NCBI GenBank assembly: GCA_017410365.1 | Contig: JAFQQY010000035.1 | Location: 62,001-126,000, forward strand | Origin: Prevotella sp. | GTDB taxonomy: Bacteria; Bacteroidota; Bacteroidia; Bacteroidales; Bacteroidaceae | Length of the DNA stretch: 64,000 bases | Direction of reading: 5' to 3' | Shown here: piece by piece, positions 3,558 through 47,801 of the stretch | Layout: each line of letters begins with the position of its first letter | Position numbering within the stretch: position 1 is the stretch's first letter | The notes under the pieces: generated by a model | What the model saw: only the letters and a program-made list of their open reading frames with translations | Databases searched by the model: none | What the model was told of the DNA's origin: nothing | Made by a program: the position numbers and the translations under genes

Positions 3558-5168
3558 TTAGAGCTGTGGACCAGCAGCAACGAGAGCCTTACCTGCCTCG
3601 TTAGTTGTGTACTTGCTGAAGTTCTTGATGAAGCGAGCAGCAAGGTCCTTAGCCTTCTCTTCCCACTGGCATGCGCACTCGTAAGTGTCGCGTGGGTCAA
3701 GGATAGCTGGGTTAACGTTTGGCAGAGCTGTTGGAACCTCGAAGTCGAACATAGGAATCTTCTTGGTTTCAGCCTTCAGGATTGAACCATCGAGGATAGC
3801 GTCGATGATACCGCGTGTATCTGGAATAGAGATACGCTTGCCAGTACCGTTCCAACCTGTGTTTACGAGGTATGCCTTAGCGCCAGACATGTTCATCTTC
3901 TTAACCAGCTCCTGAGCATACTTTGTTGGGTGCAGCTCGAGGAATGCCTGACCGAAGCAAGCTGAGAATGTTGGAGTTGGCTCTGTAATACCGCGCTCTG
4001 TACCAGCGAGCTTAGCTGTAAATCCAGAGAGGAAGTAGTACTGTGTCTGCTCTGGAGTAAGGATAGATACTGGAGGCAGTACACCAAATGCGTCAGCTGA
4101 AAGGAAGATAACGTTCTTTGCAGCTGGAGCAGATGAACCTGGCTGGATGTTGTTGATGTGGTTGATTGGGTAAGAAACGCGTGTATTCTCAGTAACGGTC
4201 TTGTCGTTGAAGTCGATAGTTCCGTCCTCAGCAACAGTTACGTTCTCGAGCAGAGCGTTGCGCTTGATAGCACCGTAGATGTCTGGCTCGTGCTCCTTAG
4301 AAAGACCGATTACCTTAGCGTAGCAACCGCCCTCGAAGTTGAACACACCGTTGTCATCCCATCCGTGCTCGTCGTCACCGATAAGGCGGCGCTTTGGATC
4401 TGTTGACAGAGTTGTCTTACCTGTACCAGAAAGACCGAAGAAGATAGCTGTGTTCTCACCGTTCATGTCGCAGTTAGCAGAGCAGTGCATAGAAGCGATG
4501 CCCTGGAGTGGAAGGTAGTAGTTCATCATTGAGAACATACCCTTCTTCATCTCACCGCCGTACCATGTGTTGATGATAACCTGCTCGCGGCTTGTAATGT
4601 TGAAAGCAACGCAAGTCTCTGAGTTGATGCCCAGTTCCTTCCAGTTTTCAACCTTAGCCTTAGAAGCGTTGTAAACGATGAAGTTTGGCTCAAACTCATC
4701 AAGTTCCTCAGCTGTTGGCTGGATGAACATGTTCTTAACGAAGTGTGCCTGCCATGCTACTTCAACGATGAAGCGAACAGACATACGTGTGTCCTTGTTA
4801 GCACCGCAGAAGCAGTCAACAACGAACAACTTCTTGTCGCAAAGCTCTTTCTTTGCAATATCCTTCAGAACAGCCCAAGACTCTTCAGAGAGAGGCTTGT
4901 TGTCGTTCTTATAGTCATCTGATGTCCACCATACGGTGTCCTTAGAGTTTTCGTCCATAACGATGAACTTGTCTTTAGGTGAACGACCAGTGTAGATACC
5001 TGTCATTACGTTCACTGCGCCAAGTTCTGTATCCTGACCTTTTTCAAAACCTGTGAGACCTTCCTTTGTCTCCTCCTCAAACAATACTTCGTATGAAGGA
5101 TTGTAAACAACTTCAGTAGTACCGGTGATACCGTACTTCTCTAAATCTGAGATCTGAAACTTTGCCAT
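3558..5168 (-). CDS. pckA: Phosphoenolpyruvate carboxykinase (ATP)
   Basis: Cytosolic enzyme interconverting oxaloacetate + ATP and PEP + CO2 + ADP. In anaerobic Bacteroidetes it usually runs toward oxaloacetate and recovers ATP on the route to succinate. The 536-residue length is standard for the ATP-type family. Visible motifs: the phosphate-binding loop [11 protein letters not shown] at about residue 244, the metal-binding [11 protein letters not shown] soon after, and RVSYPINHI...[20 protein letters not shown], the conserved C-lobe segment. The start at 5168 gives [14 protein letters not shown] and has a strong promoter 64 bp upstream. It is monocistronic, ending in its own terminator. 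Codon use is that of a highly expressed gene (GGT, CGT and AAC favoured). Confidence 0.98.
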
Positions 5169-5366: not shown

Positions 5367-5412
5367 TTTGATATAATACTACGCTTCAAACCCAAATCCG
5401 CCATAGTCATTT

Positions 5413-5475
5413 GGTATACAGGCAGTATACCATCGGTATACACGGCATATACCATTGGTATATACGGCGTATACC
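5413..5475. repeat. Three tandem 22-bp palindromic units (GGTATAC family)
   Basis: Units start at 5413, 5435 and 5457, exactly 22 bp apart. Each is a 19-bp inverted repeat: GGTATACAGGCAGTATACC, GGTATACACGGCATATACC and GGTATATACGGCGTATACC, separated by 3 bp. The array begins 15 bp after the stop codon at 5491 and lies before the terminator at 5325-5366, so it would be part of the 3' untranslated RNA. Confidence 0.95.
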
Positions 5476-5490
5476 AAATTTAAACGGTCA

Positions 5491-5937
5491 TTACTCTACG
5501 AGTTCCCCCTTGACAAAAATCCTTACATAGCTACGGGGGTCGTTGCTATATACTGTTACCGACTTGCGGAAAAAACCCGGCAACTGACCTTCGCCACGAT
5601 ACGAAACTTTTATCGTGCCTGTTTCTCCTGGCTTTACCGGTTTCTTTGTGTATTCAGGTTTCGTACATCCGCATCCGCTCACGGCATGCAGTACCACGAG
5701 GTCGCTACCGCCTGTGTTCCTGAAAGTAAAAGTATGCGTCTTCAGCGTATCGGAACCAGTAGGCGAGAAACGGCCAAAGTCATGTTCCCGCTCATCAAAA
5801 ACTATATGAGGAGTCTTTGATTGACGGTATTGCATGGAGTCAGCAACAACAGACCTGTTGCCTTGCGCAAAGGCAAGGCAACAGAAAATAAAACACATCA
5901 AAACATCTATTGTTATTATACAAGAGATACGTCGCAT
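5491..5937 (-). CDS. DUF1573 domain protein, exported
   Basis: Small exported protein of 148 residues with a signal peptide (residues 1-25, ending FCCLAFAQ). One DUF1573 Ig-like domain follows: FDEREHDFGRF, then TFTFRNTGGSDLVV, the conserved SGCGCTKPEYTK cysteine motif and GTIKVSYRGEG. The family is related to ASH/MSP-type immunoglobulin folds and is common in Bacteroidetes envelopes; its role is not established. It begins 9 bp after the stop of the 793-residue lipoprotein gene, so the two are very likely cotranscribed and translationally coupled. Confidence 0.85.
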   Translation of the reverse strand: MRRISCIITIDVLMCFIFCCLAFAQGNRSVVADSMQYRQSKTPHIVFDEREHDFGRFSPTGSDTLKTHTFTFRNTGGSDLVVLHAVSGCGCTKPEYTKKPVKPGETGTIKVSYRGEGQLPGFFRKSVTVYSNDPRSYVRIFVKGELVE

Positions 5938-8338: not shown

Positions 8339-8585
8339 TTTTTAAAGATGTTAAAGGAGTTATAGGAAGTTATCGCTTCTTTTTAGGAGTTCAGGAGTGA
8401 ATTTAAAAGGAGTGTAGGAGTTCAGGAGTGTAGGAGTGCAGACGGATGCTTGCCATGCAAATGTCTTCTATCTTCTTTTATCTCCTTTTATCTTCTTCTA
8501 CATTCCTCCACTCGGGGAGGTTAGGAGGGGGCTTTCAATCCCTCATCCAATCTCCCCTCTTTCGGAGGGGTTAGGGGGAGGTCAA
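8339..8585. repeat. Composite intergenic repeat, copy 1
   Basis: Modules in order: GGAGTTATAGGAAGTTATCG; 8-bp units AGGAGTGC/AGGAGTGT/AGGAGTTC; the phrase CAGACGGATGCTTG; 10-bp pyrimidine units (TCTTCTTTTA, TCTCCTTTTA); and a GC-rich hairpin CCCCTC...GAGGGG (about 8552-8570). The stop of the next gene (8571) lies in the last module. Confidence 0.85.
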
Positions 8586-9279: not shown

Positions 9280-9785
9280 TTTTTTAGGAGTTAATCCTTT
9301 TTAGGAGTGCAGGAGTGTAGGAGTGCAGGAGTGCAGACAATAGCATGACATGCAAACCTTAATCTTTAATCCCTAATCCTTAATCCAATTCTTGGAGTGC
9401 AGGAGTTCAGGAGTGTAGGAGTGCAGACGGATGCTTGACACGCAAATGTCTTCTATCTTCTTTTATCTCCTTCTACCTTCTTCTATCTTCTACATTTATT
9501 AGGAGTTCAGGAGTGCAGACGGATGCTTTTTTTAGGAGTTCAGGAGTGAATTTAAAAGGAGTGCAGGAGTTCAGGAGTGTAGGAGTGTAGACGTATGCTT
9601 GACACGCAATCCCTCATCCAAATCCCCCTCCTTCGGAGGGGCTAGGGGAGGTTTCAATCTCTCATCCAATTCTCCCCTCCTTCGGAGGGGTTGGGGGAGG
9701 TTCCTACCTTCTTCAACCCTTCTCCCCTCCTTTGGAGGGGCTGGGGGAGGTTTCACACCCTCATCTCTCATCCCTCATCTCATCT
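9280..9785. repeat. Composite intergenic repeat, copy 2 with three GC-rich hairpins
   Basis: About 500 bp with no gene. 8-bp AGGAGTGC-type units occur at 9297-9335, 9393-9430 and 9530-9595, pyrimidine 10-bp units at 9450-9495, and three copies of CCCCTCCTTCGGAGGGG or a one-base variant at about 9623, 9676 and 9726. GATGAGGGATGAGAGATGAG-like 7-bp repeats end it and encode the C-terminus of the next gene. Confidence 0.85.
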
Positions 9786-19554: not shown

Positions 19555-19875
19555 TTTTAAAAGGAGTGTAGGAGTGAAGGAGTGTAGGAGTTTTTCGCCT
19601 ACGCTCAACAACACGTCAGACGTATGCTTTATTATTTTAGGAGTTAAATGGAGTTATAGGAAGTTATCGCTTCGCTAAGAAGTTAGAGGACGTATGCTTG
19701 ACATGCAAATGTCTTCTATCTCCTTTTATCTTCTTCTATCTCCTTCTACCTTCTTCTATCTCCTTTTATCTTCTTCTATCTTCTACTATATTCTTTTATA
19801 TTTAGTCTCTCTCATCAAGGAGAGAGCGGAGGCTTTTTATTCCCCTCCCTCGGAGGGGTTAGGGGAGGTTCCTTT
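19555..19875. repeat. Composite intergenic repeat, copy 3
   Basis: Includes 8-bp AGGAGTG-type units (19558-19592), GGAGTTATAGGAAGTTATCG (about 19651), the phrase ACGTATGCTTGACATGCAAA, eleven or so 10-bp pyrimidine units (TCTTCTTCTA, TCTCCTTCTA; 19715-19800) and a CCCCTCCCTCGGAGGGG hairpin (about 19840). About 80 bp of this (19637-19715) is nearly identical to 27424-27505. Confidence 0.85.
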
Positions 19876-24927: not shown

Positions 24928-26583
24928 ATGAAAAAAGCATTTTGGGCTATATGTATCATCACTTCTATTTTAATTGGATGCAATGAGACAAACAGTAACC
25001 ATGGGGCAATAGACACAAGTCATGCAGAGGCTATCGCCGACAGTGTGAGAGATTCGGAGCAGCTACGCAAATGGCTGCACCACTACGATTCGCTGGGTGA
25101 CGAAAAGTCGGAACTGCTGATAAGACAGAAATACGGCAAGGTGATGAGAGACAAGTCGGAATTCGAGGCTGCCATAAGGCAGCATGATACTTGCATTGCT
25201 ATGGCGACGAAACAGAAAGACACGCTGCAACTGATTATCGCTCTGAACAACCAGGGCACAAACTTCAGACGGTTGGGCGACTTGCAGGAAGCAAGCAACA
25301 ATCATTATGCGGCATTGAAACTCTGCGACAAGACAACACACGATACTTCTTACGTTGCACGGAAGAACAGGGTAAGGACATACAACGGACTGGGCAACGT
25401 ACTGCTGTCACTGGACAACGACAGTGTGGCTGAGAGTCTGTTCCGCAGGGCATTGGCAGGAGAGACGGAACTGAACAGCGCAACAGGTCAGGCTATCAAC
25501 CTTGCAAACATCGGGGCGATAAAAGAAGGAAGGGGCGAACTGGATTCCGCGCGCGTATATTATAATATGTCTATGGAGAAGAACAAAGAGACGAACAATC
25601 CCATAGGCATAAGCCTCTGTTATCAGAATCTAGGTCAACTGGAATTTTCGGCTGGCAATATGACCGGTGCGATGGAGAACTACCGCAAAGGATTTGAAAT
25701 AGGCAAAAAGACGTCCGACATGTGGCATTGGCTAAAACCTTGTGAGGCAATGGCAGACATCTTTCTTGAGGAGAACAAGATTGATTCTGCACGCAAATAC
25801 ATCAACATGTCGTTGGAGGCGGCATTGAAGATAAAGGCAAAGAGCAGATTGGCAAAGGCTTATACCCAAAATGCCAGACTACAGGAAAAGACCGGGCAGC
25901 ATGCAAAGGCGTTGGAAAGCATAAAGAAGGCACAGGCTTATAAAGACAGCATTGCTTCGGAGAAGAGTCAGACGCACATTCAGAACCTAAGAGTGAAGTA
26001 TGAGGTGGACAAAAGAAAGGAAGAGGTAAGCAGAGCCAAGACTGAAACCGAATTCGAAAAGACTCTGAGGAAGACTATCATGTGGGCAAGCATCACGGTG
26101 CTCATACTCATTGTCATTGTGGTATTATCACAACTGCGCATTATCAAAGAGCGTAAAAAGACACTCGCCATGCTGAAAAAGGTTAACAAGGAACGTCAGG
26201 AGTTCTACCGTGGCATCACTCATCAGCTAAGAACACCGCTGACCGTAGTAAACGGCATGACCGGACAACTGAGAAAGTTCATTCCTGCAGACAATGAAGT
26301 GGCTCAACGCGAGTTTGAGGCAGTGGAGAGAAAGAGCAACGAACTGGTGAACCTCGTAAACGAAATGATTTTATACAACAAGGGCATAGTCAAGGAAATT
26401 GAGGTGTCGGAGGTTGGGAATGGAGTTAGGAGTGAGGAATTAGGAGTGAGGAGTGAGGAGATATCTTTAAGGAGTGAAGGAGTGAAGGAGTTATCTTTAG
26501 GAGTGCAGACGTTAGCTTCAGAATCTAGCAACTCGTCAACTCGTCAACTTGTCAACTTGCGAAGCACTCAACTCGTCAACTGA
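24928..26583 (+). CDS. TPR sensor with HisKA domain but no ATPase domain
   Basis: 551-residue membrane sensor. N-terminal lipoprotein-like signal (IITSILIGC), about six TPR units (residues 45-340, e.g. ALNNQGTNFRRLGDLQEASN), a coiled coil, one membrane helix near residue 385 (MWASITVLILIVIVVLSQLR), then a HisKA dimerisation domain with the H-box THQLRTPLT (His at about residue 432). A kinase should continue into a HATPase_c domain with N, G1 and G2 boxes; none is present. After NKGIVKEIEVSEV the frame is made of repeat DNA (GVRSEELGVRSEE, NSSTRQLVNL) and stops. It overlaps the regulator frame by 35 bp. It may be a degraded hybrid two-component protein or a ligand-sensing partner without autokinase activity. 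Confidence 0.8.
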   Translation: MKKAFWAICIITSILIGCNETNSNHGAIDTSHAEAIADSVRDSEQLRKWLHHYDSLGDEKSELLIRQKYGKVMRDKSEFEAAIRQHDTCIAMATKQKDTLQLIIALNNQGTNFRRLGDLQEASNNHYAALKLCDKTTHDTSYVARKNRVRTYNGLGNVLLSLDNDSVAESLFRRALAGETELNSATGQAINLANIGAIKEGRGELDSARVYYNMSMEKNKETNNPIGISLCYQNLGQLEFSAGNMTGAMENYRKGFEIGKKTSDMWHWLKPCEAMADIFLEENKIDSARKYINMSLEAALKIKAKSRLAKAYTQNARLQEKTGQHAKALESIKKAQAYKDSIASEKSQTHIQNLRVKYEVDKRKEEVSRAKTETEFEKTLRKTIMWASITVLILIVIVVLSQLRIIKERKKTLAMLKKVNKERQEFYRGITHQLRTPLTVVNGMTGQLRKFIPADNEVAQREFEAVERKSNELVNLVNEMILYNKGIVKEIEVSEVGNGVRSEELGVRSEEISLRSEGVKELSLGVQTLASESSNSSTRQLVNLRSTQLVN

Positions 26584-28383: not shown

Positions 28384-28480
28384 GGATGAGAGATTAGAGA
28401 TGAGGGATGAGGGATTGCATGTCAAGCATCCGTCTGCACTCCTACACTCCTCAACTCCTACACTCCTCAAAAAAAACTCG
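28384..28480. repeat. Short composite repeat between upp and the transporter
   Basis: GATGAGAGATTAGAGATGAG-type 7-bp units, then the phrase CATGTCAAGCATCCGTCTGC and CACTCCTACACTCCTCAACT units: the reverse-complement form of the AGGAGTGC module. Confidence 0.8.
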
Positions 28481-35442: not shown

Positions 35443-35496
35443 TTAAAAACTTCATGAAATTGCAAAACAGCTACAGCAGTTTAGGATTACAAGATT

Positions 35497-35581
35497 TTTA
35501 CAAGATTCTTGTAATGGTATTACACGGTGCGTGTAATACCATTACAAGGGTAGAATAAAAAGATTACACGGGCATTGTAAA
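35497..35581. repeat. Four tandem 22-bp palindromic units (TTGTAAT family)
   Basis: Units start at 35497, 35519, 35541 and 35563. The clearest is ATTACACGGTGCGTGTAAT (35519-35537); the neighbours are TTTACAAGATTCTTGTAAT and ATTACACGGGCATTGTAAA, and the third is one-armed (ATTACAAGGGTAGAATAAA). The array starts 15 bp after the korB stop. Confidence 0.93.
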
Positions 35582-35596
35582 AACAGTATTCGTTTA

Positions 35597-36604
35597 TTAC
35601 TTCACTTCCCAGGTATCATTTGTCTCAAGCAGTTCCATGAAGTTGTGATACTTCTTCTGACTGCTGACCTCTGCCAACTGCTCATGAACGGCATCGTCGT
35701 AGGTCGGTGCTTCAACGTCGCGGATAACGCCGAGGGCTACAGGGAAGCCGCTCTCGTTGTCCATCATGGCAAGCTTGAGCTGGAGTGTGTTGTCCTCGCA
35801 ATGGGCATCGTGAACAAGAACATCGTCAAGGGTATAGCCATCCTTGCCAATCTCAACGACCTTCAAGCCGAAACCTTCCTGAACGAGTCCAAACTCATTG
35901 TTCTCACCGAACACGAGCTTCTCGCCGTGGCGAACATAGATGGCGTTCTTCTTGCGACCTTCCTTGTTATATATCGGGTCGTAGCAACCATTATTGAAGA
36001 TGACGCAGTTCTGGAGAATCTCACATACAGACGCTCCCTTATGCTTATATGCCGCCTTCAGCACCTCAACGGTCTCGGCATTGTCAGTAGCCACCGAGCG
36101 GGCGAAGAAATGGCCGCGTGCGCCGAAGCACAGCTCTGCCGGACGGAACGGGTCTTCTACTGTTCCGTAAGGACTTGACTTGCTCACGAAGCCGCGTGGC
36201 GATGTAGGAGAGTACTGTCCTTTGGTAAGTCCATAGATACGGTTGTTGAGCAGAATCATGTTAAGGTCGATATTACGACGCATGGCGTGGATGAAGTGGT
36301 TGCCACCGATAGCCAGTCCGTCACCGTCGCCACTAATCTGCCACACACACAGGTTTGGGTTAGCCACCTTAGCACCTGTGGCGATGGCTGCCGCACGACC
36401 GTGGATGGTCTGCATTGCGTAAGTATTGACATAGTATGGCAGACGGCTTGAACATCCGATACCTGAGATTACTGCCATGTCGTGTGGAGCTACACCCACC
36501 TCCGCCATTGCCTTGTGCAATGATGCGAGGAAGAAGTGGTCGCCACAACCAGGACACCAACGTGGCTGTCCTTTTTTATAGTCTTGTGCTGTATATTCAC
36601 ACAT
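35597..36604 (-). CDS. korB: 2-oxoacid:ferredoxin oxidoreductase, beta subunit
   Basis: 335 residues. Carries the thiamine diphosphate site: WCPGCGDHFFLASLHKAMAE at the N-terminus, GIGCSSRLPYY, and the GDGDGLAIGGNHFIHAMRRN metal/TPP motif ending NNRIYGLTKGQYSPTSP. With the alpha subunit it converts 2-oxoglutarate (or a related 2-oxoacid) and CoA to the acyl-CoA, CO2 and reduced ferredoxin, in reverse fixing CO2 under anaerobic conditions. It is normally directly beside korA; here the pair is separated by about 780 bp holding tandem repeats and a GxxExxY gene. The 5' end (MCEYTAQD) has degenerate copies in those repeats. Confidence 0.92.
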   Translation of the reverse strand: MCEYTAQDYKKGQPRWCPGCGDHFFLASLHKAMAEVGVAPHDMAVISGIGCSSRLPYYVNTYAMQTIHGRAAAIATGAKVANPNLCVWQISGDGDGLAIGGNHFIHAMRRNIDLNMILLNNRIYGLTKGQYSPTSPRGFVSKSSPYGTVEDPFRPAELCFGARGHFFARSVATDNAETVEVLKAAYKHKGASVCEILQNCVIFNNGCYDPIYNKEGRKKNAIYVRHGEKLVFGENNEFGLVQEGFGLKVVEIGKDGYTLDDVLVHDAHCEDNTLQLKLAMMDNESGFPVALGVIRDVEAPTYDDAVHEQLAEVSSQKKYHNFMELLETNDTWEVK

Positions 36605-36649
36605 ATCTTTTTATTTTTTAATAATTCTACAAAGTATATTTTTTATATA

Positions 36650-36945
36650 CACAACGAATTTAACTAATTAAACAAATTATTCTTTAGTTCTTTAATTCTA
36701 TTGTGCTGTTCATTCACATATTTCTTTTTAGATTTAAACACAACGAATTTAACTAATTAAACGAATTTTTCTTAGTCCTTTAATTCGATTGTGCTGTTTA
36801 TCCACATATATCTTTTTATATTTATACACAACGAATTTAACTAATTAAACGAATTATTTCTTAGTTCTTTAATTCGATTGTGCCGTATATTCACATATCT
36901 TTTATTTATAACCACAACGATTTAAACTAATTAAACGAATTATTT
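36650..36945. repeat. Tandem 86-89-bp repeats carrying copies of the korB start
   Basis: CACAACGAATTTAACTAATT begins at 36650 and recurs at 36739, 36827 and (variant) 36913. Each unit also holds, on the minus strand, a copy of the korB beginning: ATATGTGAATATACGGCACA (near 36895), ATATGTGGATAAACAGCACA (36810) and ATATGTGAATGAACAGCACA (36722), compared with the real ATGTGTGAATATACAGCACA at 36604. The copies soon reach TGA or TAA stops. Confidence 0.9.
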
Positions 36946-37341
36946 TCATAGTTCATTAATTCGACTGAAATTGGGCAATCGCTCGAAACGTAAAGACAAT
37001 TCACCAAAATTAATCAATAAAGCCAATGGACTTTGTGATACCTTTGCGTAGTTTATCGCCTGTGAACGATGCATATCTTCCAATTCTTTTACCGCTTTCA
37101 ATTCGACTATTATGCAATTAAAGCAAACAAAATCTGGCTTAAAAACAGATTCCAGCTTCTCGCCTTTATAAATCACAAACAACTCTGGTTCACGAACATA
37201 TGGGATATTATTGTTTTTTAACTCAATCTCAAGGGCATCTTGATATACTTTTTCGGTAAATCCACATCCGAGTTCCCGATGCACACTCATTGCCGCACCT
37301 ATAATCTCATGGACTTCCATTCTATATAACAAATCCCCCAT
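36946..37341 (-). CDS. GxxExxY protein (PD-(D/E)XK nuclease-like fold)
   Basis: 131 residues. The family motif is GCGFTEKVYQDALEIEL; the nuclease-like residues are PDFVCFNCIIVELK (D...ExK), preceded by the conserved start HEIIGAAMSVHRELG. The family (TIGR04256/PDDEXK_3) is abundant in Bacteroidetes and has no established function; a nuclease or DNA-repair role is assumed from the fold. It lies between korA and korB, with no functional tie to them. Both sides carry outward-reading copies of a sequence of about 38 bp (ATAATTCGTTTAATT...TCGTTGT...TATAAAT): 37343-37379 on the plus strand and 36943-36903 on the minus strand, that is, inverted repeats flanking the gene. Confidence 0.88.
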   Translation of the reverse strand: MGDLLYRMEVHEIIGAAMSVHRELGCGFTEKVYQDALEIELKNNNIPYVREPELFVIYKGEKLESVFKPDFVCFNCIIVELKAVKELEDMHRSQAINYAKVSQSPLALLINFGELSLRFERLPNFSRINEL

Positions 37342-39228: not shown

Positions 39229-39553
39229 ATATGTTTATTTAAAGTTGACGAGTTAACAAGTTGACGAGTTGACAAGTTGATATATCTTCCTCTATCTTCT
39301 TTTCTCTCCTTTTATCATCATTCCCCCTCAGGGAATTAAAGGAGACTTCTTAACTTCTACTACACATTAATTATTTAAGGTTGCAAAGGTCGCAAAGTTT
39401 ATCGAGAAAACAAAATGTTTTTAAATAAAAATGCAATTATCGATGCAAAAAGATACATTTTTAAATGAAAAACTGTATTTTTATTAATTTAAGCATGCAT
39501 ATTCTTGCATAACTCTGGACAAATAGTATATGAAATGTTTAAGGTAAGGACAT

Positions 39554-39815: not shown

Positions 39816-39881
39816 AAACCGCCGTTTTACACTTCTTAAACGGCCGTTTGGGTATCGTAATTGGGCCTTTTGGGTATCAAA
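39816..39881. repeat. Three 22-bp units (AAACGGCCGTTT family)
   Basis: Palindromes AAACCGCCGTTT (39816), AAACGGCCGTTT (39838, perfect) and ATTGGGCCTTTT (39860) are spaced exactly 22 bp. The last two units also share the direct repeat TTTGGGTATC. Confidence 0.85.
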
Positions 39882-39945
39882 AGTGATGCATTTAGGAGTG
39901 CTAACCGAACCACTTTCGTATAAGAAACGAAAGGGATAAAAGAAA

Positions 39946-40022: not shown

Positions 40023-41399
40023 TTACTTCACTTCCTCAGCCTCTGTTGTTTCAGCATCCTTTTTCTTTGCCAGGTATTCAGGCAAGTTAAGGCCAGCCAT
40101 ATCGAAGAGGTCGTTCAATGGAGGAACAGACTTCATCAAGCCTGAAACGAAATTGGCTGTTGAACCTTTACCCTCGGCACCGTTGCCACCGTCCCAAACA
40201 GTAACGTGGTCGATATTGATGCCCTTGACAGCCTCAACCTGTGTCTTAACAAGTTCTGGCAATTTCTCAAGCAACAGAAGCATGTAAGCCTTTGTAGCAT
40301 CACCACCAGCAGCCGTAACCATATCCTTGTAACCGGAAGCCTGCTTTGTAAGCACCTCGTAGAGACCCTTAGCTTCAGCTTCCATCTTAGCGAAGATAGC
40401 GTCAGCATCACCCTTTGCACTTACACGGATCTTCTCTGCCTCTGCCTCTGCCTCGATGATACGGCGACGCTTCTCAATTTCCTGTGGCACAAGGATATTG
40501 GCTGTCTGCGTTGAACGCTCACGCTCAGCACGAGCCTCTTCGGCAAGTTTCTGTGCTGCGTATGCCTCTTCAAGAGCCTTAGCCTCCTGAACCTTCTCTG
40601 AAGCAGTAGCCTTGCGCTGTGCTTCTGCCTCACGCTCACGACGGTAAGCCTCACTGTTGGCAATGGCAACTCTTGCCTCGTTCTCTCCCTTTACAGCCTC
40701 TGCATTTGCCTCTGCTGTACGGATACGTGTTTCACGGTCTGCCTCTGCCTTACCGATTTCACCCACCTTATCCTGTTCTGCCACGCGCACCTTAGCCTCG
40801 TTGATAGCACGTGCAGCTGCTTCACGACCGAGAGCCTCGATATATCCAGACTCGTCCTTGATGTCGGTTACGTTAACGTTGATAAGGCGAAGACCGATTT
40901 TCTTCAACTCAACCTCGACGTTGGCAGAAATACTCTCCAAGAACTTATCGCGGTCGCTGTTCAGTTCCTCGATACTCATCGTAGCGATAACCAGACGCAA
41001 CTGACCGAACAAGATATCACGTGCCAATTCCTGAATCTGCCCCTCTGACAGACCGAGCAGACGCTCAGCAGCCGATGTCATATACTCAGGGTCGGTAGAG
41101 ATACCAACGGTGAAACGGCTTGGCACGTCGACACGGATGTTCTGACGAGACAACGCGTTAGTAAGATTGGCATCTATAGAGATTGGTTTAAGACTCAGAT
41201 ACTGGTAGTCTTCGATGATAGGCCATACGAAAGCACCGCCACCATGAATACACTTTGCCGAAGCCTTACTACTCTTATTTCCATAAATTACAAGAATCTT
41301 GTCCGACGGACAACGGCGGTAGCGGTTGATAAGTGCAAGAACAGTTACAACAGCTACAACAACTGCAATAATAATTAAATGATAGCTTTCAAATTCCAT
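40023..41399 (-). CDS. Flotillin family protein
   Basis: 458-residue membrane scaffold of the SPFH family. One N-terminal membrane helix (residues 7-25, IIIAVVVAVVTVLALINRY), then the PHB/SPFH domain (residues 30-200; GGGAFVWPIIEDYQYLSLKP) and a long coiled coil with the Glu-Ala repeats typical of flotillins (AEAEAEKIRVSAKGDADAIF; EAEAKGLYEVLTKQASGYKD). The C-terminal tail is acidic (AETTEAEEVK). It oligomerises on the inner membrane to organise ordered lipid domains. Its upstream neighbour is the NfeD-like partner, 33 bp away, the usual operon for this pair. Confidence 0.92.
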   Translation of the reverse strand: MEFESYHLIIIAVVVAVVTVLALINRYRRCPSDKILVIYGNKSSKASAKCIHGGGAFVWPIIEDYQYLSLKPISIDANLTNALSRQNIRVDVPSRFTVGISTDPEYMTSAAERLLGLSEGQIQELARDILFGQLRLVIATMSIEELNSDRDKFLESISANVEVELKKIGLRLINVNVTDIKDESGYIEALGREAAARAINEAKVRVAEQDKVGEIGKAEADRETRIRTAEANAEAVKGENEARVAIANSEAYRREREAEAQRKATASEKVQEAKALEEAYAAQKLAEEARAERERSTQTANILVPQEIEKRRRIIEAEAEAEKIRVSAKGDADAIFAKMEAEAKGLYEVLTKQASGYKDMVTAAGGDATKAYMLLLLEKLPELVKTQVEAVKGINIDHVTVWDGGNGAEGKGSTANFVSGLMKSVPPLNDLFDMAGLNLPEYLAKKKDAETTEAEEVK

Positions 41400-43931: not shown

Positions 43932-44016
43932 AGGTTATAAAAAATACAAGGGCCTTGTACGAGTAATACAAAACCCTTGTAAAAGCATTACAAAGCACTT
44001 GTACGAATCGTACAAG
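43932..44016. repeat. 22-bp palindromic units (CTTGTACG family), three full and one partial
   Basis: Full units at 43954 (CTTGTACGAGTAATACAAA), 43976 (CTTGTAAAAGCATTACAAA) and 43998 (CTTGTACGAATCGTACAAG, perfect), each 22 bp after the last. A one-armed unit ends TACAAG at 43950. The array begins 14 bp after the GH128 gene stop. Confidence 0.94.
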
Positions 44017-44030
44017 AACCTTGCATGAGA

Positions 44031-47000
44031 CTATTTACCTCCTAAAACTTTCTTTACCTGCTTGCCGTTGACGTTCAGCATTACGCCATTGTTGCGCACT
44101 GCCTTGCGACCGCCAAGGTCGTAAACGGCTGTCGTGCTGCCATTTTCCGCCTCAACGCCTTCAATGCCGTCGGCATACTCTTCTGTTGCTCCTATGATTG
44201 GCATGGTCTTTCCTGCCCAAGAGTCATGAACAGGCAGTCCTACGGTCTTCATCAGGATTCCAGAATAGTCTTCCATATATGGACGGAAACTTGAGGTTAC
44301 ACGCTGCCACTCACCGTTCTGCAGCACATAACTGTTCAGGCGTGCACGTGCAGAGGTTACGAAATTGCCTCGCAGATTAGCTTCGTCTGTTATGGCAGTC
44401 CTCACGGCATCGCCACTTTCAAAGAAATTAACCTCCGTATCAGTAGAGAAATAAACAGCCGGTTCGCCAGCAACCACTCCTGCCGTTTCCTCAAGGCAGA
44501 GGTTCTTATAGTCAGAAGTGATTCCTACAATCTTGTAAAGATGTGTATCTCCAGAAACGGTGATTGCTCGTGGCAGACAGATAACGCCCCAACCGCCAAC
44601 CGGTGCTGCAACACGGTAGAGCGGACTATAACGGAGCACGAAATCAGTAGCGCACCACCAGCCCTCTCGCTTGTCGCCAGCGTATGTCTTGTCGCCAATG
44701 CGCCACCACTTATTGTCTGTTGCACCCAACTTTGAACCAACAAAACCGAACGAAACAGTGTCGCCGTCAGCCAGATAAACAGGAGCGGTGTGCAATGTCT
44801 GCCACATGGCAGCCTCAGCTATAGTAGGCAGGTCGAGGTAATCTGCGGCGAGGACAGGAGAAACAACTGTATCGTTGCCATGCACCATATAAGCGTGCTG
44901 GTCGCTCAAGCAGAAATGCTGGGTTGCTGCCTTGCACTCCAATACATAGAGACCATGCTCGAAACCGCCTTCTATCGTCTGCCTTATCTCCATTGTCTTG
45001 CCTGTTCCTTCTGATGCATTCAAGCCCGACCACCATGCGTTCCATGCCGTCTTGCTGCCGTGAGTAGCCACACGCTGGTCACCACCGGTAAATGTTCCGC
45101 ACTTAACGGTCCATCCTTTGTCACCATTGGCAAAGTCGCCATTCACCACCTTCACGCCAGAAGCAGAAAGAGGCATATAGCTGTCCATAGCCGAGCGCAA
45201 GGTAGAACAAGCATCGATATAATCGGACGAAGTAGAGCACTTCTCTATCTTGTCGAGTGCAGCACGCACCTCAACACATCCCGGCAAACCGAAAAGCACG
45301 GTCTTGTTTGCTTGCTGACTCAATGAGTCGATAGTGCGCATGTCTTTCAATGCCTGAACAGCATTCATTACCACAGCATTCAGTTGCTCATATTCAGCAA
45401 CGTAATCAGTAACATCGCTCTTAACAGCCTCACGCAGTTCGGCAGCAATGCCAGGATAGTCTTTTTCCAGATATGCAGCCATTGCCTGTGCCTTTAGACC
45501 AACCTGCTCCAGACCGTCGGCGTATGCCTCCTCCTTTGTTTCAAACAAACGACAGAGCGTTAGCTTGTCTATCTGCGCGCCAGCAGAGAGCATGCGCAAC
45601 GAAAGCTGTATCTTTGAGAAACTGCCGCTATTGAAGTTGGCCGACTGCATGAGCCATGTAGTACTACCGTTCATCATTGTTGCAACAGAATCTTCCTTGT
45701 TATCGCCACTGGTAAAGCACAGACGCATCAATGGCAAGCCAGAGCATTGCGATGCACCAGAGAAATAGTAGTCGGCATACGGTTCGATGTCAAACACGTT
45801 GAGCACCGACTGCTCTTTCTTCGTACCGCCATCGCCATAAGCCTGCAGGTATGCACCACCGTCGTAGCCGCCTACCGACAATGCCTGGAAATATGGTTCT
45901 GACAACGGGGTGCCGTCGCCTGCCGTCCATGACATGAAACCGAGGTCAAAGTCGCCGTTCACAAAGCGATTGCCACCTGCATAGTAAACCTTATTGTCAA
46001 CAGACATTGCCATACCTGTTGACACCTTGCTTGGCACAGCCTTTACAGAGCGTGTGATATAGCTCTTGCCTGTAGCATCAATCATGTGCAGACGATACAT
46101 ATAGCCAGATACTGCAGATTGGTCAACAAACTCATAGTGAGCACCTTCTTCCTCAAATGCTATCTCTGCATAGTCTTCCCATTTCTTTCCGTCAGCCGAG
46201 CGCTGTATGGTCATCGACTCGTTATACTCTCCGTTTGGTTCATACCATGTTAGACTAGCCACGCCCTTGTCGCTATCGTACTTGATAGAGAAGTTTGACG
46301 GTCCGTACATCTTAGGCAGCTTTGGCACCACCTCATATCTTGAATCGTACGCTATATTAGATGGTTTGTTGGCATAGTATTTTCCGAAAGGAGTCAGCTG
46401 CATCTTGCCATCTATAACCATACGGCAGTCTTCTACCCAGTTGTATATAGCATAACGCTCCAGCCAAGGAGTTTCTTCCAAACCATCGATGACAGGATTC
46501 ATGTGCTGAGTCTGTATTGCATAGTTAGCATCGCTGCCAGTACGGTCACTTCCTGGCCATCCTGTCCAGTTGGCGCCGTAGTTCATCTCGGTAATCCATA
46601 CAGGGCGGCCAGTGCGGTTGCGAACATTCTGAAGTGTGTTCTTCCAACTTGGCCAGTCGCTCAACCAATAGCAGTGCATCACTACAAAATCGCAACGCCA
46701 GCCACGGGCATCGATTGAGTCAAAGAACTCATAAAGCCAGTTGAGGTTGCTTGCCATTGCAGGCGAACCAAGACGACGACCTGTAGCCATCATCTCTGGC
46801 CATGTGGCAAGGACTTCTGCTACGCTATTCACCTGTTCACGGTCATCACCAGTATTGTCAGGTTCGTTGTTGCCAAGAATATTGGCAGATGTTCCGTTAT
46901 TACCTACATCGGCAATACCTGGCCATCCCTCATGGTGATGCTGTGTAACATACTCACGGTCGGTCCAAATGTTTATTCCAGCATCCCAGCTATAACACCA

Positions 47001-47690
47001 TGTAGTGTTCAGCGGGTCGTTGTATGCAGGATCCCAACCGGCATAACCCTTCTTGCTGGCATCGTTCCACTTGCTGACACGCAGCGCAGAAATAGAATTG
47101 CTGAGGATAGTCGGCAGGTTGACTGATATCGGTTCTTTGTCGGCAATGAACACTCGGTTATATCCTTTGCCGTCGGCCTTAGTTGCAAACCATGCCATAT
47201 AGCCTCGCTTCAGGGTGAAACTCTTTATGCGGTTGTTCATAGGTGAGTTTCTCAGAGACTGGCGGGTGCTCACACCAAACTGCGCCGATTCGCCCTGCTG
47301 GTCTTTCTCTGTATATACCGTCAGCGGTTTGCCTTCAGCATAAGGCAGCAATATGGCACCGTCGCCATGTATGCGTGCTTGACAGTTGGCAGCCGAAGCC
47401 TTCTGGCCGTTGATGCGTATGTTGCCATAAAAGCTGCTCACCTTTGATGGTTTCAGACTTGAGAAAACGATTGTTGCCTTCTCTGTATTTACAATATCCA
47501 CAACTGCACCGCTGGCAAAAGGTGTTGCTGATGTAATGACATAGTCAACATCCTCGGTCAGCGTAACCGTTCCTTTCACCTGCTCTACAGTCTCTGTAGT
47601 GTTGCCGTAAGCAGAAAAGGCAACGGCAAGGAGCATCACGCTCCCCACCATTGCCTTTCTTGCGGCATTAAATATTAATTGCCTTTTCAT
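44031..47690 (-). CDS. GH128-type glycoside hydrolase with type IX-like C-terminus
   Basis: Exported enzyme of 1,219 residues; likely endo-beta-1,3-glucanase. I start it at 47690 (MKRQLIFNAARKAMVGSVML), a true signal peptide; the frame back to 47759 (MSPISPMGLISPIGLI...) is translated 9-bp repeat. The catalytic barrel spans about residues 195-430: YAGWDPAYNDPLNTTWCYSW, ILGNNEPDN (acid/base Glu about residue 276), GRRLGSPAMASNLNWLYEFF, and VWITEMNYGANWTGWP (nucleophile Glu about residue 368). Fibronectin-like and carbohydrate-binding-like domains follow (residues 440-1090, two repeats of the VVNGDF/FVNGDF type). The end (AVYDLGGRKAVRNNGVMLNV) resembles a type IX sorting domain. It is the last gene of the PUL. 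Confidence 0.82.
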   Translation of the reverse strand: MKRQLIFNAARKAMVGSVMLLAVAFSAYGNTTETVEQVKGTVTLTEDVDYVITSATPFASGAVVDIVNTEKATIVFSSLKPSKVSSFYGNIRINGQKASAANCQARIHGDGAILLPYAEGKPLTVYTEKDQQGESAQFGVSTRQSLRNSPMNNRIKSFTLKRGYMAWFATKADGKGYNRVFIADKEPISVNLPTILSNSISALRVSKWNDASKKGYAGWDPAYNDPLNTTWCYSWDAGINIWTDREYVTQHHHEGWPGIADVGNNGTSANILGNNEPDNTGDDREQVNSVAEVLATWPEMMATGRRLGSPAMASNLNWLYEFFDSIDARGWRCDFVVMHCYWLSDWPSWKNTLQNVRNRTGRPVWITEMNYGANWTGWPGSDRTGSDANYAIQTQHMNPVIDGLEETPWLERYAIYNWVEDCRMVIDGKMQLTPFGKYYANKPSNIAYDSRYEVVPKLPKMYGPSNFSIKYDSDKGVASLTWYEPNGEYNESMTIQRSADGKKWEDYAEIAFEEEGAHYEFVDQSAVSGYMYRLHMIDATGKSYITRSVKAVPSKVSTGMAMSVDNKVYYAGGNRFVNGDFDLGFMSWTAGDGTPLSEPYFQALSVGGYDGGAYLQAYGDGGTKKEQSVLNVFDIEPYADYYFSGASQCSGLPLMRLCFTSGDNKEDSVATMMNGSTTWLMQSANFNSGSFSKIQLSLRMLSAGAQIDKLTLCRLFETKEEAYADGLEQVGLKAQAMAAYLEKDYPGIAAELREAVKSDVTDYVAEYEQLNAVVMNAVQALKDMRTIDSLSQQANKTVLFGLPGCVEVRAALDKIEKCSTSSDYIDACSTLRSAMDSYMPLSASGVKVVNGDFANGDKGWTVKCGTFTGGDQRVATHGSKTAWNAWWSGLNASEGTGKTMEIRQTIEGGFEHGLYVLECKAATQHFCLSDQHAYMVHGNDTVVSPVLAADYLDLPTIAEAAMWQTLHTAPVYLADGDTVSFGFVGSKLGATDNKWWRIGDKTYAGDKREGWWCATDFVLRYSPLYRVAAPVGGWGVICLPRAITVSGDTHLYKIVGITSDYKNLCLEETAGVVAGEPAVYFSTDTEVNFFESGDAVRTAITDEANLRGNFVTSARARLNSYVLQNGEWQRVTSSFRPYMEDYSGILMKTVGLPVHDSWAGKTMPIIGATEEYADGIEGVEAENGSTTAVYDLGGRKAVRNNGVMLNVNGKQVKKVLGGK

Positions 47691-47699
47691 GATGTTTTC

Positions 47700-47801
47700 T
47701 GTAATAATTATTATGAGACCAATGGGGCTAATGAGTCCCATTGGGCTTATGGGGCTCATGGGCTCTATGAGGCTTATTAGTCTTATGAGCCCAATTGCCC
47801 A
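47700..47801. repeat. 9-bp tandem array between susD and the GH128 gene
   Basis: Units GACCAATGG, GGCTAATGA, GTCCCATTG, GGCTTATGG, GGCTCATGG, GCTCTATGA, GGCTTATTA, GTCTTATGA. Translated on the minus strand in frame with the GH128 gene it yields MSPISPMGLISPIG, which makes the open frame look longer than the gene. Confidence 0.92.

Follow-up and report, generated by a model that had tools for sequence, protein, structure and literature searches.

Short intergenic arrays of inverted repeats raise the question of whether they are copied elements, products of a replication error, or sites read by a protein or an RNA. The case considered here lies in a stretch of 64,000 nucleotides of a Prevotella genome, referred to as the window (contig 33, positions 62001-126000). 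The genome to which the window belongs, called the own genome in all counts below, has 3.28 Mb in 55 contigs and is 89% complete. Judged by a single protein, its closest named relatives are records of Prevotella and Xylanibacter. An earlier note on this DNA had described four intergenic loci whose inverted-repeat units are spaced by exactly 22 bp, and had taken them to share geometry only, with no copied family behind them. We therefore asked what these arrays are, how widely the 22-bp geometry is found, and what might read it.

Results

The arrays of the window

All four loci do lie on a 22-bp lattice (Table 1), and the observation is real and larger than had been reported. The units of the first array, F1, begin at 5413, 5435 and 5457, and each is built of two 7-bp arms around 5 bp, followed by 3 bp, which gives 22 bp. 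They had been called intact, and this is nearly so: unit 1 has perfect 7-bp arms, and units 2 and 3 have one mismatch each. The description of 19-bp palindromes with 3-bp spacers at three loci, and of shorter ones at 39816, holds for F1 and for F3, in which the dyads of the window are shorter (AAAC..GTTT) at 22-bp spacing, but it does not hold for the array at 43945, F4, which has 5-5-5 cores and 7-bp linkers. By eye, F4 looks like F2. Tandem Repeats Finder reported two of the four arrays at period 22 (5413 and 43943). The genes next to the window arrays are ordinary, and when the neighbours of other arrays were run against Pfam, one XRE-type HTH (L046) and one NUDIX (L086) were found.

Table 1. 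Arrays of the window and the genes beside them, in window coordinates
Feature	Position	Strand	Description
F1 array	5409..5479	.	three 22-bp dyad units GGTATAC-5-GTATACC-3 with inverted ends ATTTGGTATAC / GTATACCAAAT; 1 of 15 genomic places
F2 array	35486..35590	.	22-bp dyad units ATTACAC-GGTGC-GTGTAAT and degenerate neighbours; 1 of 5 places
F3 array	39816..39885	.	AAAYGGSCCRTTT-like dyads at 22 bp, within a longer dispersed element; ~19 places
F4 array	43945..44024	.	TACAA-5-TTGTA cores repeated every 22 bp, separated by 7-bp linkers; no other place at E<=0.001
DUF1573 gene	5491..5937	-	stop codon ~15 bp from F1 array
PEPCK (ATP) gene	3558..5168	-	start ~240 bp (243 bp) from F1 array, on the side opposite DUF1573
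TPP_enzyme_C gene	35597..36604	-	2-oxoacid:ferredoxin oxidoreductase beta type; 3' neighbour of F2; query for the 80 species loci
Flotillin-like gene	40023..41399	-	3' neighbour of F3
Glyco_hydro_cc gene	44031..47759	-	3' neighbour of F4

Tandem arrays of other kinds are present in the window as well. Short ones with units of 7, 8 and 10 bp (AGGAGTGC, TCTTCTATCT, AGTTGACA/CAACTTGT) lie at 8408-8441, 9303-9336, 19562-19591, 26422-26581, 28437-28470, 39242-39280 and other places, and AGGAGTGC is found within the F3 element too. A tandem array with an 88-bp period and 3.6 copies (36649-36964) is situated 5' of the TPP_enzyme_C gene, and one with a 50-bp period (9607-9755) has the palindrome-like CTCCCCTCCTTCGGAGGGG inside.

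Dispersed families of arrays

A sequence search of the 3.28 Mb of the own genome found F1 at 15 places, F2 at 5 and F3 at about 19, with F4 alone at E<=0.001. Three of the four window arrays are thus themselves copied as dispersed families, and the claim that no sequence is shared fails inside the own genome; it is different families that have only their geometry in common. The copies of F1 have one common size and inverted ends AAATTTGGTATAC...GTATACCAAATTT, some of them degenerate, and the order and orientation of their inner units vary. No target duplication is visible around them by eye, and F1 had no match in plasmid records. For F3 the pairwise homology between copies extends up to about 300-400 bp, and the copies differ by whole units, as judged by eye. 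Further families of the own genome came out of the period scan described below, for example TGTATTT-GGCGT-AAATACA, AGTCCGA-ACGGC-TCGGACT and GAGAAGTGCCAGTTCTC. In viral contigs, the F1 pattern was found in three stretches (two of them in AT-rich contigs, inside ORFs), the F6 pattern in one and the F7 pattern in none. An F1-like array in the genome G059 (contig C35; L062, 1480-1600) is enclosed by longer inverted ends (GGGCGTGTCAAAA...TTTTGACGCCCCC) and has a MITE-like appearance.

The array families are nearly species-specific. F1 is present in 4 of 149 genomes, the own genome included, with one match in each of the other three, and F2 in 2 of the 149.

The period of 22 bp in Prevotella

We scanned the own genome and G016 for three dyads combined with a direct repeat, using all periods between 14 and 40. 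The own-genome sample of 464 kb comprised the window and 20 further stretches, which were taken from contigs that earlier searches had pointed to but were not centred on the matches. It contained 22 dyad arrays at 22 bp, no other period gave more than 7, and the dinucleotide-shuffled sample contained none at period 22. The genome scan proposed in the earlier note thus finds the excess, and at more than the four original sites. G016 gave 12 arrays at period 22 versus at most 7 elsewhere (the 7 being at period 14), and shuffled G016 gave 2 at 22. When the harmonic at 44 is set aside, the count at period 22 compares with that of the best other period as 12 to 2 in G010, 3 to 1 in G024 and 8 to 2 in G028; in G059 it is 6, and 8 at period 14. 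Among 80 loci of Prevotella-group species, which were retrieved with the protein encoded at 35597-36604, there were 39 matches at 22 bp in 27 loci, 24 at 44 and 19 at 14, and each remaining period between 12 and 45 gave no more than 8. The proposed scan of related Prevotella therefore shows the same peak in G016, G010, G024, G028 and the 80 species loci. In 12 genomes from 12 other families of the order (388 kb) no clear array was found, only one AT-rich match at 22 and four at 14.

A control with mirror symmetry at period 22 gave 5 mirror versus 22 dyad arrays in the own genome and 3 versus 12 in G016, and with 24 versus 39 it was not clean for the 80 loci. The 22-bp geometry is a class property of Prevotella intergenic arrays. 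A second, smaller excess of dyad arrays is seen at period 14 (19 in the 80 loci, 8 in G059 and 4 in the set from other families).

Position relative to genes

Array matches fell into 21 convergent, 20 divergent and 48 same-strand gaps, for which 105, 130 and 358 gaps of at least 66 bp were available; this count uses crude ORFs, includes an own-genome set partly made of stretches chosen round F1 and F3 copies, and omits 17 matches in ORFs and 4 at stretch ends. Arrays are found in every class of intergenic gap and are not confined to 3' UTRs. The F1 array, which had been assigned to the 3' UTR of the DUF1573 gene, lies close to the stop codon of that gene and also near the PEPCK start.

Comparison of orthologous loci, another of the proposed checks, gave a divided answer. 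Array positions are mostly not conserved between species: the gap from the gene beside F2 (TPP_enzyme_C) to the next crude ORF contains an array in only 2 of the 80 species loci (L168, L189), and within 700 bp of the end of this gene an array is found in 6 (L168, L189, L182, L194, L198, L208). Between very close species arrays are retained in place (L213/L215, L198/L208). L213 is about 420 bp longer than L218 around its array, and among the loci compared there was no close strain with an empty site.

Properties of the repeat unit

The best-sampled family is that of G016 with the core TGAYGCA. In 400 kb there are 59 same-strand pairs of this core at most 70 bp apart, with 28 at 22, 18 at 44 and 7 at 66 bp. 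The six off-lattice pairs occur once each at 15, 39, 48, 54, 59 and 65 bp, none being found at 20, 21, 23 or 24, and by hand arithmetic a random placement of the 254 cores would give about 5 off-lattice pairs. Across the whole G016 genome there are 84+84 core pairs at 22 bp versus 0+1 for the reversed pattern. Reversed cores are mainly on the same 22-bp lattice, the orientation flipping about the same dyad centre.

In 134 distinct G016 units we observed no covariation of the arms (seven arm pairs, all |z|<1.7), and the core pair 9-11 had a z of -3.2. Conservation along these units is uneven and roughly symmetric around the dyad. Pairs above expectation occurred in F1 (9-11 in the core, z 3.8), F3 (3-11 and 4-10, z 3.0 and 3.2) and F7 (2-16 and 3-15, z 2.2 and 3.5), which we read, by way of conjecture, as a mixture of unit subtypes. 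Rfam gave no match in the window at gathering thresholds. Independent arms with symmetric conservation, as in G016, have the look of the half-sites of a symmetric dimer and not that of a hairpin. In this family, arms that do not covary, together with a spacing locked to multiples of 22 bp, point to sites of a dimeric protein rather than to hairpins or slippage.

In four of five families, neighbouring units resemble each other about as much as units from other loci do, with mean identities of 0.588 vs 0.569 in G016, 0.784 vs 0.796 in F1, 0.724 vs 0.694 in F7 and 0.573 vs 0.578 in G010; local duplication thus does not keep these arrays alike. F3 is a modest exception (0.602 for adjacent units vs 0.532 elsewhere). 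Only one of 71 adjacent pairs in G016 is identical. Reversed units were found to the left of forward ones in 19 cases versus 4 with strict G016 cores, and in 6 versus 0 among the 13 F1 arrays scored, with ambiguous units set aside. Whole arrays therefore tend to be mirror-symmetric, with their cores pointing outward. The strict pattern was used for this count, and a loose one (27 versus 31) was discarded since it counts palindromic matches that overlap on the two strands alike.

HU-HIG genes and their neighbouring arrays

In the search for a dimeric DNA-binding family we examined HU-HIG (PF18291), whose profile gave matches to PDB chains of HU and IHF. Matches beginning no later than model position 5 were found in all seven Prevotella genomes searched and in none of seven genomes of other families, where every PF18291 match starts at position 19 or later, as in ordinary HU. 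These are families in which our scan showed no clear array.

We read 20 HU-HIG loci of the genome G003 (of 30 matches, chosen by score, with two near contig ends replaced) and 20 loci of six other genomes (2 of 5 matches in the own genome, 3 of 7 in G016, 2 of 6 in G010, 6 of 11 in G024, 5 of 11 in G028 and 2 of 10 in G059). The G003 loci contain 20 arrays at 22, 16 at 44 and 0-3 at each other period; in the loci of the six other genomes there are 10 at period 22 and 6 at 44, and no further period gives more than 2. In G003 an array lies within 300 bp of 18 of the 20 HU-HIG genes, and outside those zones none of 85 other ORFs has one; 14 of these 18 arrays are upstream of the HU-HIG gene, at 81-241 bp, and 4 are downstream. 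The corresponding numbers for the six other genomes are 5 of 20 HU-HIG genes versus 5 of 96 other ORFs. The general rate of ORFs with an array within 300 bp, taken from unselected samples, is 42 of 332 in the own genome, 27 of 317 in G016 and 60 of 983 in the 80 loci. As a matter of counts the link is therefore weak outside G003, and the case rests on G003.

Most of the G003 HU-HIG paralogues have an array sequence of their own, for example TTCACCATGGTGAA, AAAACGTATATACGTTTT, CCTAAGTATCATACTTAGG and TTCTTCGCGAAGAA, and close duplicates share one. Array similarity follows HU-HIG protein similarity, with a Mantel rho of 0.249 that was reached by 5 of 2000 permutations, for 22 loci that include recent duplicates and four loci from outside G003 picked for having an array. 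This correspondence may reflect joint inheritance. L295 in G016 and L321 in G003 encode an identical HU-HIG protein of 153 aa and have an upstream array of the same family.

The profile also identified six HU-HIG genes in DNA that had been fetched for other reasons. Four of these genes have an array match within 500 bp, one match being AT-rich and weak. Of the six, L294, L296, L298 and L301 also belong to the loci read on purpose; the remaining two, L125 and L232, are new, and both have an array that the blind scans had found. The L232 array was found before HU-HIG was considered and has one of the highest scores in the 80 loci; it lies between the HU-HIG gene and a VapE-like/BT4734 gene, all three within 8910-12058 of L232.

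Some units next to HU-HIG genes are found in many further places. One HU-HIG gene of G028 has an upstream array with the unit AGTAAAATAGGCTATTTTACT, and this unit matches 124 forward and 129 reverse places in G028 at up to 3 mismatches; since it is a near-palindrome, this amounts to about 130 places, and among the matches listed some are 22 bp apart. In seven other genomes it occurs 0, 0, 0, 0, 0, 1 and 3 times, and a reversed control gave 0-2 per strand. In G010 an AT-rich array beside one HU-HIG gene most resembles the dispersed arrays of that genome.

In the own genome there is no array near either of the two HU-HIG genes, and a search of these loci with the cores of F1, F2, F3, F5, F6 and F7 found only one TGTATTT within 3 kb. 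Arrays of the dominant G016 family keep a distance of at least about 2.3 kb from the three HU-HIG genes read. Near one of these genes there are isolated TGATGCA cores, 0.2 and 0.5 kb away, which may be due to chance. In G024 no array lies within 300 bp of any of six HU-HIG genes, and a weak AT-rich match is found just beyond this distance. Several HU-HIG genes of this genome (L300-L304) have near-identical 5' regions, as if carried on a repeated cassette. In G028 the dyads TTTATATATAAA / TTTGTATACAAA by the HU-HIG gene of L305 (upstream of 3040) seem, by eye, to be spaced by about 23 bp and so to depart from the period of 22. A copy of the dispersed GGCAGCGGCCGCTGCC element is situated inside the 3' end of the HU-HIG reading frame of L310 in G059 (3544), and the predicted C-terminus of the L310 HU-HIG protein is unlike that of L309.

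Discussion

Our results suggest that the arrays probably represent a Prevotella-wide class of intergenic double-stranded binding sites, and that HU-HIG proteins are the most likely readers, at least beside their own genes, a binding which we infer. A class of proteins recognising 22-bp phasing had been among the options of the earlier note, and this option is supported by the lattice, the symmetric half-sites that do not covary, the flips about the dyad centre and, in some species, the HU-HIG link. Each 22-bp unit would be an imperfect dyad read by a protein dimer, and the dimers would sit side by side, one per about two helical turns. A HU-HIG paralogue, belonging to a branch of the HU/IHF family, would read the private array beside its own gene and in this way regulate itself, and some paralogues would encounter the same array sequence at scores of further places. 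If the shared dimer fold sets the geometry and the contacts of each protein set the sequence, families would be expected to turn over and the period to stay at 22. A reader of this kind would also have to be assumed for F1-F4. The linkage with HU-HIG genes is not binding, and both binding and autoregulation are predictions that follow from the proposal.

It is also conceivable that the arrays are non-autonomous, MITE-like mobile elements, in which a transposase or recombinase acting in trans uses the units as its sites and small elements with ends of 22-bp units have spread. Among the families, the F1 copies resemble such elements in their common size and their terminal inverted repeats. The G059 element recurs at several loci, and both this family and F1 look mobile; the tendency to mirror symmetry with outward cores, and array places that are mostly not kept in other species, would also be expected of them. 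We nevertheless consider this explanation unlikely. The F1 copies have neither a target duplication that can be seen by eye nor a match in plasmid records, no gene flanked by two arrays was noticed in an unsystematic look, and the lattice and the uneven, symmetric conservation of the degenerate G016 units are unlike neutral decay. The HU-HIG linkage of G003 would be left unexplained. Another DNA-binding family might read the arrays, with HU-HIG genes merely among its targets, and we regard this as quite improbable. The own genome and G016 are rich in arrays whose main families have no HU-HIG partner beside them, and the weak counts outside G003 are in line with such a reader, but it gives no account of the differing array sequences at most G003 HU-HIG paralogues or of the similar arrays of similar HU-HIG proteins.

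The remaining explanations concern the origin or the form of the repeats. A satellite-like descent from one ancestral 22-bp array, with an inherited period and a drifting sequence, would explain the period common to the families and the arrays that stay put between very close species. Drift would however erase the dyad symmetry, which is kept in unrelated sequences, and the few off-lattice spacings (6 of 59) despite a low unit identity (a G016 mean of about 0.57-0.59), with adjacent units mostly not homogenised, make this explanation very improbable. Arrays of hairpins in RNA or single-stranded DNA, which had also been suggested, appear slightly less probable again: units such as GGTATAC-5-GTATACC can be drawn as a hairpin, but the arms of the 134 G016 units vary independently, with no compensatory change, and the window has no Rfam match. 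We give least credence to replication slippage or a templated making of palindromes, the other suggestion of the earlier note. The differences by whole units between F3 copies, and the somewhat more alike adjacent units of this family, would fit slippage, but the other four families and the near absence of identical neighbours in G016 speak against it, as does a single period across unrelated sequences and species.

Several known systems resemble the arrays in part. REP/BIME sequences with their RAYT proteins are dispersed extragenic palindromic units with species-specific sequences, and in these respects they are like our arrays. We considered a RAYT/REP system and rejected it: the Y1-type transposase PF01797 is absent from 5 of 11 genomes (G000, G024, G003, G026, G012), which comprise the own genome and 4 of the 10 other Prevotella genomes searched, and has 1-3 matches in the other six; the lack of arm covariation in G016 is a further difference. 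Plasmid iterons and centromere arrays of the ParR/parC type are phased sites at about two helical turns with a cognate protein for each sequence. The Prevotella arrays differ from these in being scattered over the chromosome and dyadic, and no Rep or Par gene was noticed alongside. A likeness to IHF and HU lies in the HU-HIG profile, which matches their chains; to our knowledge, sequence-specific tandem 22-bp dyad arrays are known for none of the HU/IHF proteins.

Among described repeats of related bacteria, the BrickBuilt MITE of Porphyromonas gingivalis has direct repeats of 23 nt, together with a leader segment, a tail segment and IS5-like ends, and occurs in P. gingivalis and P. gulae only (PMC4596501). 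It is like our arrays in being intergenic, in having 19 places in one strain, in the similar length of its tandem units and in its related host. The difference is that its repeats are direct and of 23 nt, dyads not being described in the part of the account used here (PMC4596501). The Prevotella arrays have period 22 and dyadic units. Compared with BrickBuilt by its description, our arrays do not show the 23-nt direct repeats with leader and tail. PINSR, a 188-bp intergenic repeat of P. intermedia, is present in 177-184 copies per genome, has no coding capacity and is restricted to a Prevotella sublineage (PMC4755523). Compared by its description, it is similar in being intergenic and from Prevotella, and 188 bp is close to 8.5 x 22, but the consulted part of its description contains no 22-bp unit or dyad (PMC4755523). 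In the open-licence literature we found no description of Prevotella 22-bp dyad arrays or of HU-HIG targets.

HU-HIG readers would suggest a broader picture, on which we are evenly divided: a private-code chromatin in Prevotella, in which a diversifying set of HU-HIG proteins each has its own 22-bp dyad array by its gene, and in some species scores more, with a code that shifts between paralogues and species and a two-turn geometry that stays constant. If this is true, a candidate target of HU-HIG proteins and a binding assay for them would be at hand. The 18 protein-array neighbours of G003, recent duplicates included, would be a natural start towards a recognition code. A fold of the HU/IHF type would then be seen gaining many sequence specificities, and a class of repeats that abounds between the genes of a major gut and oral genus would be accounted for.
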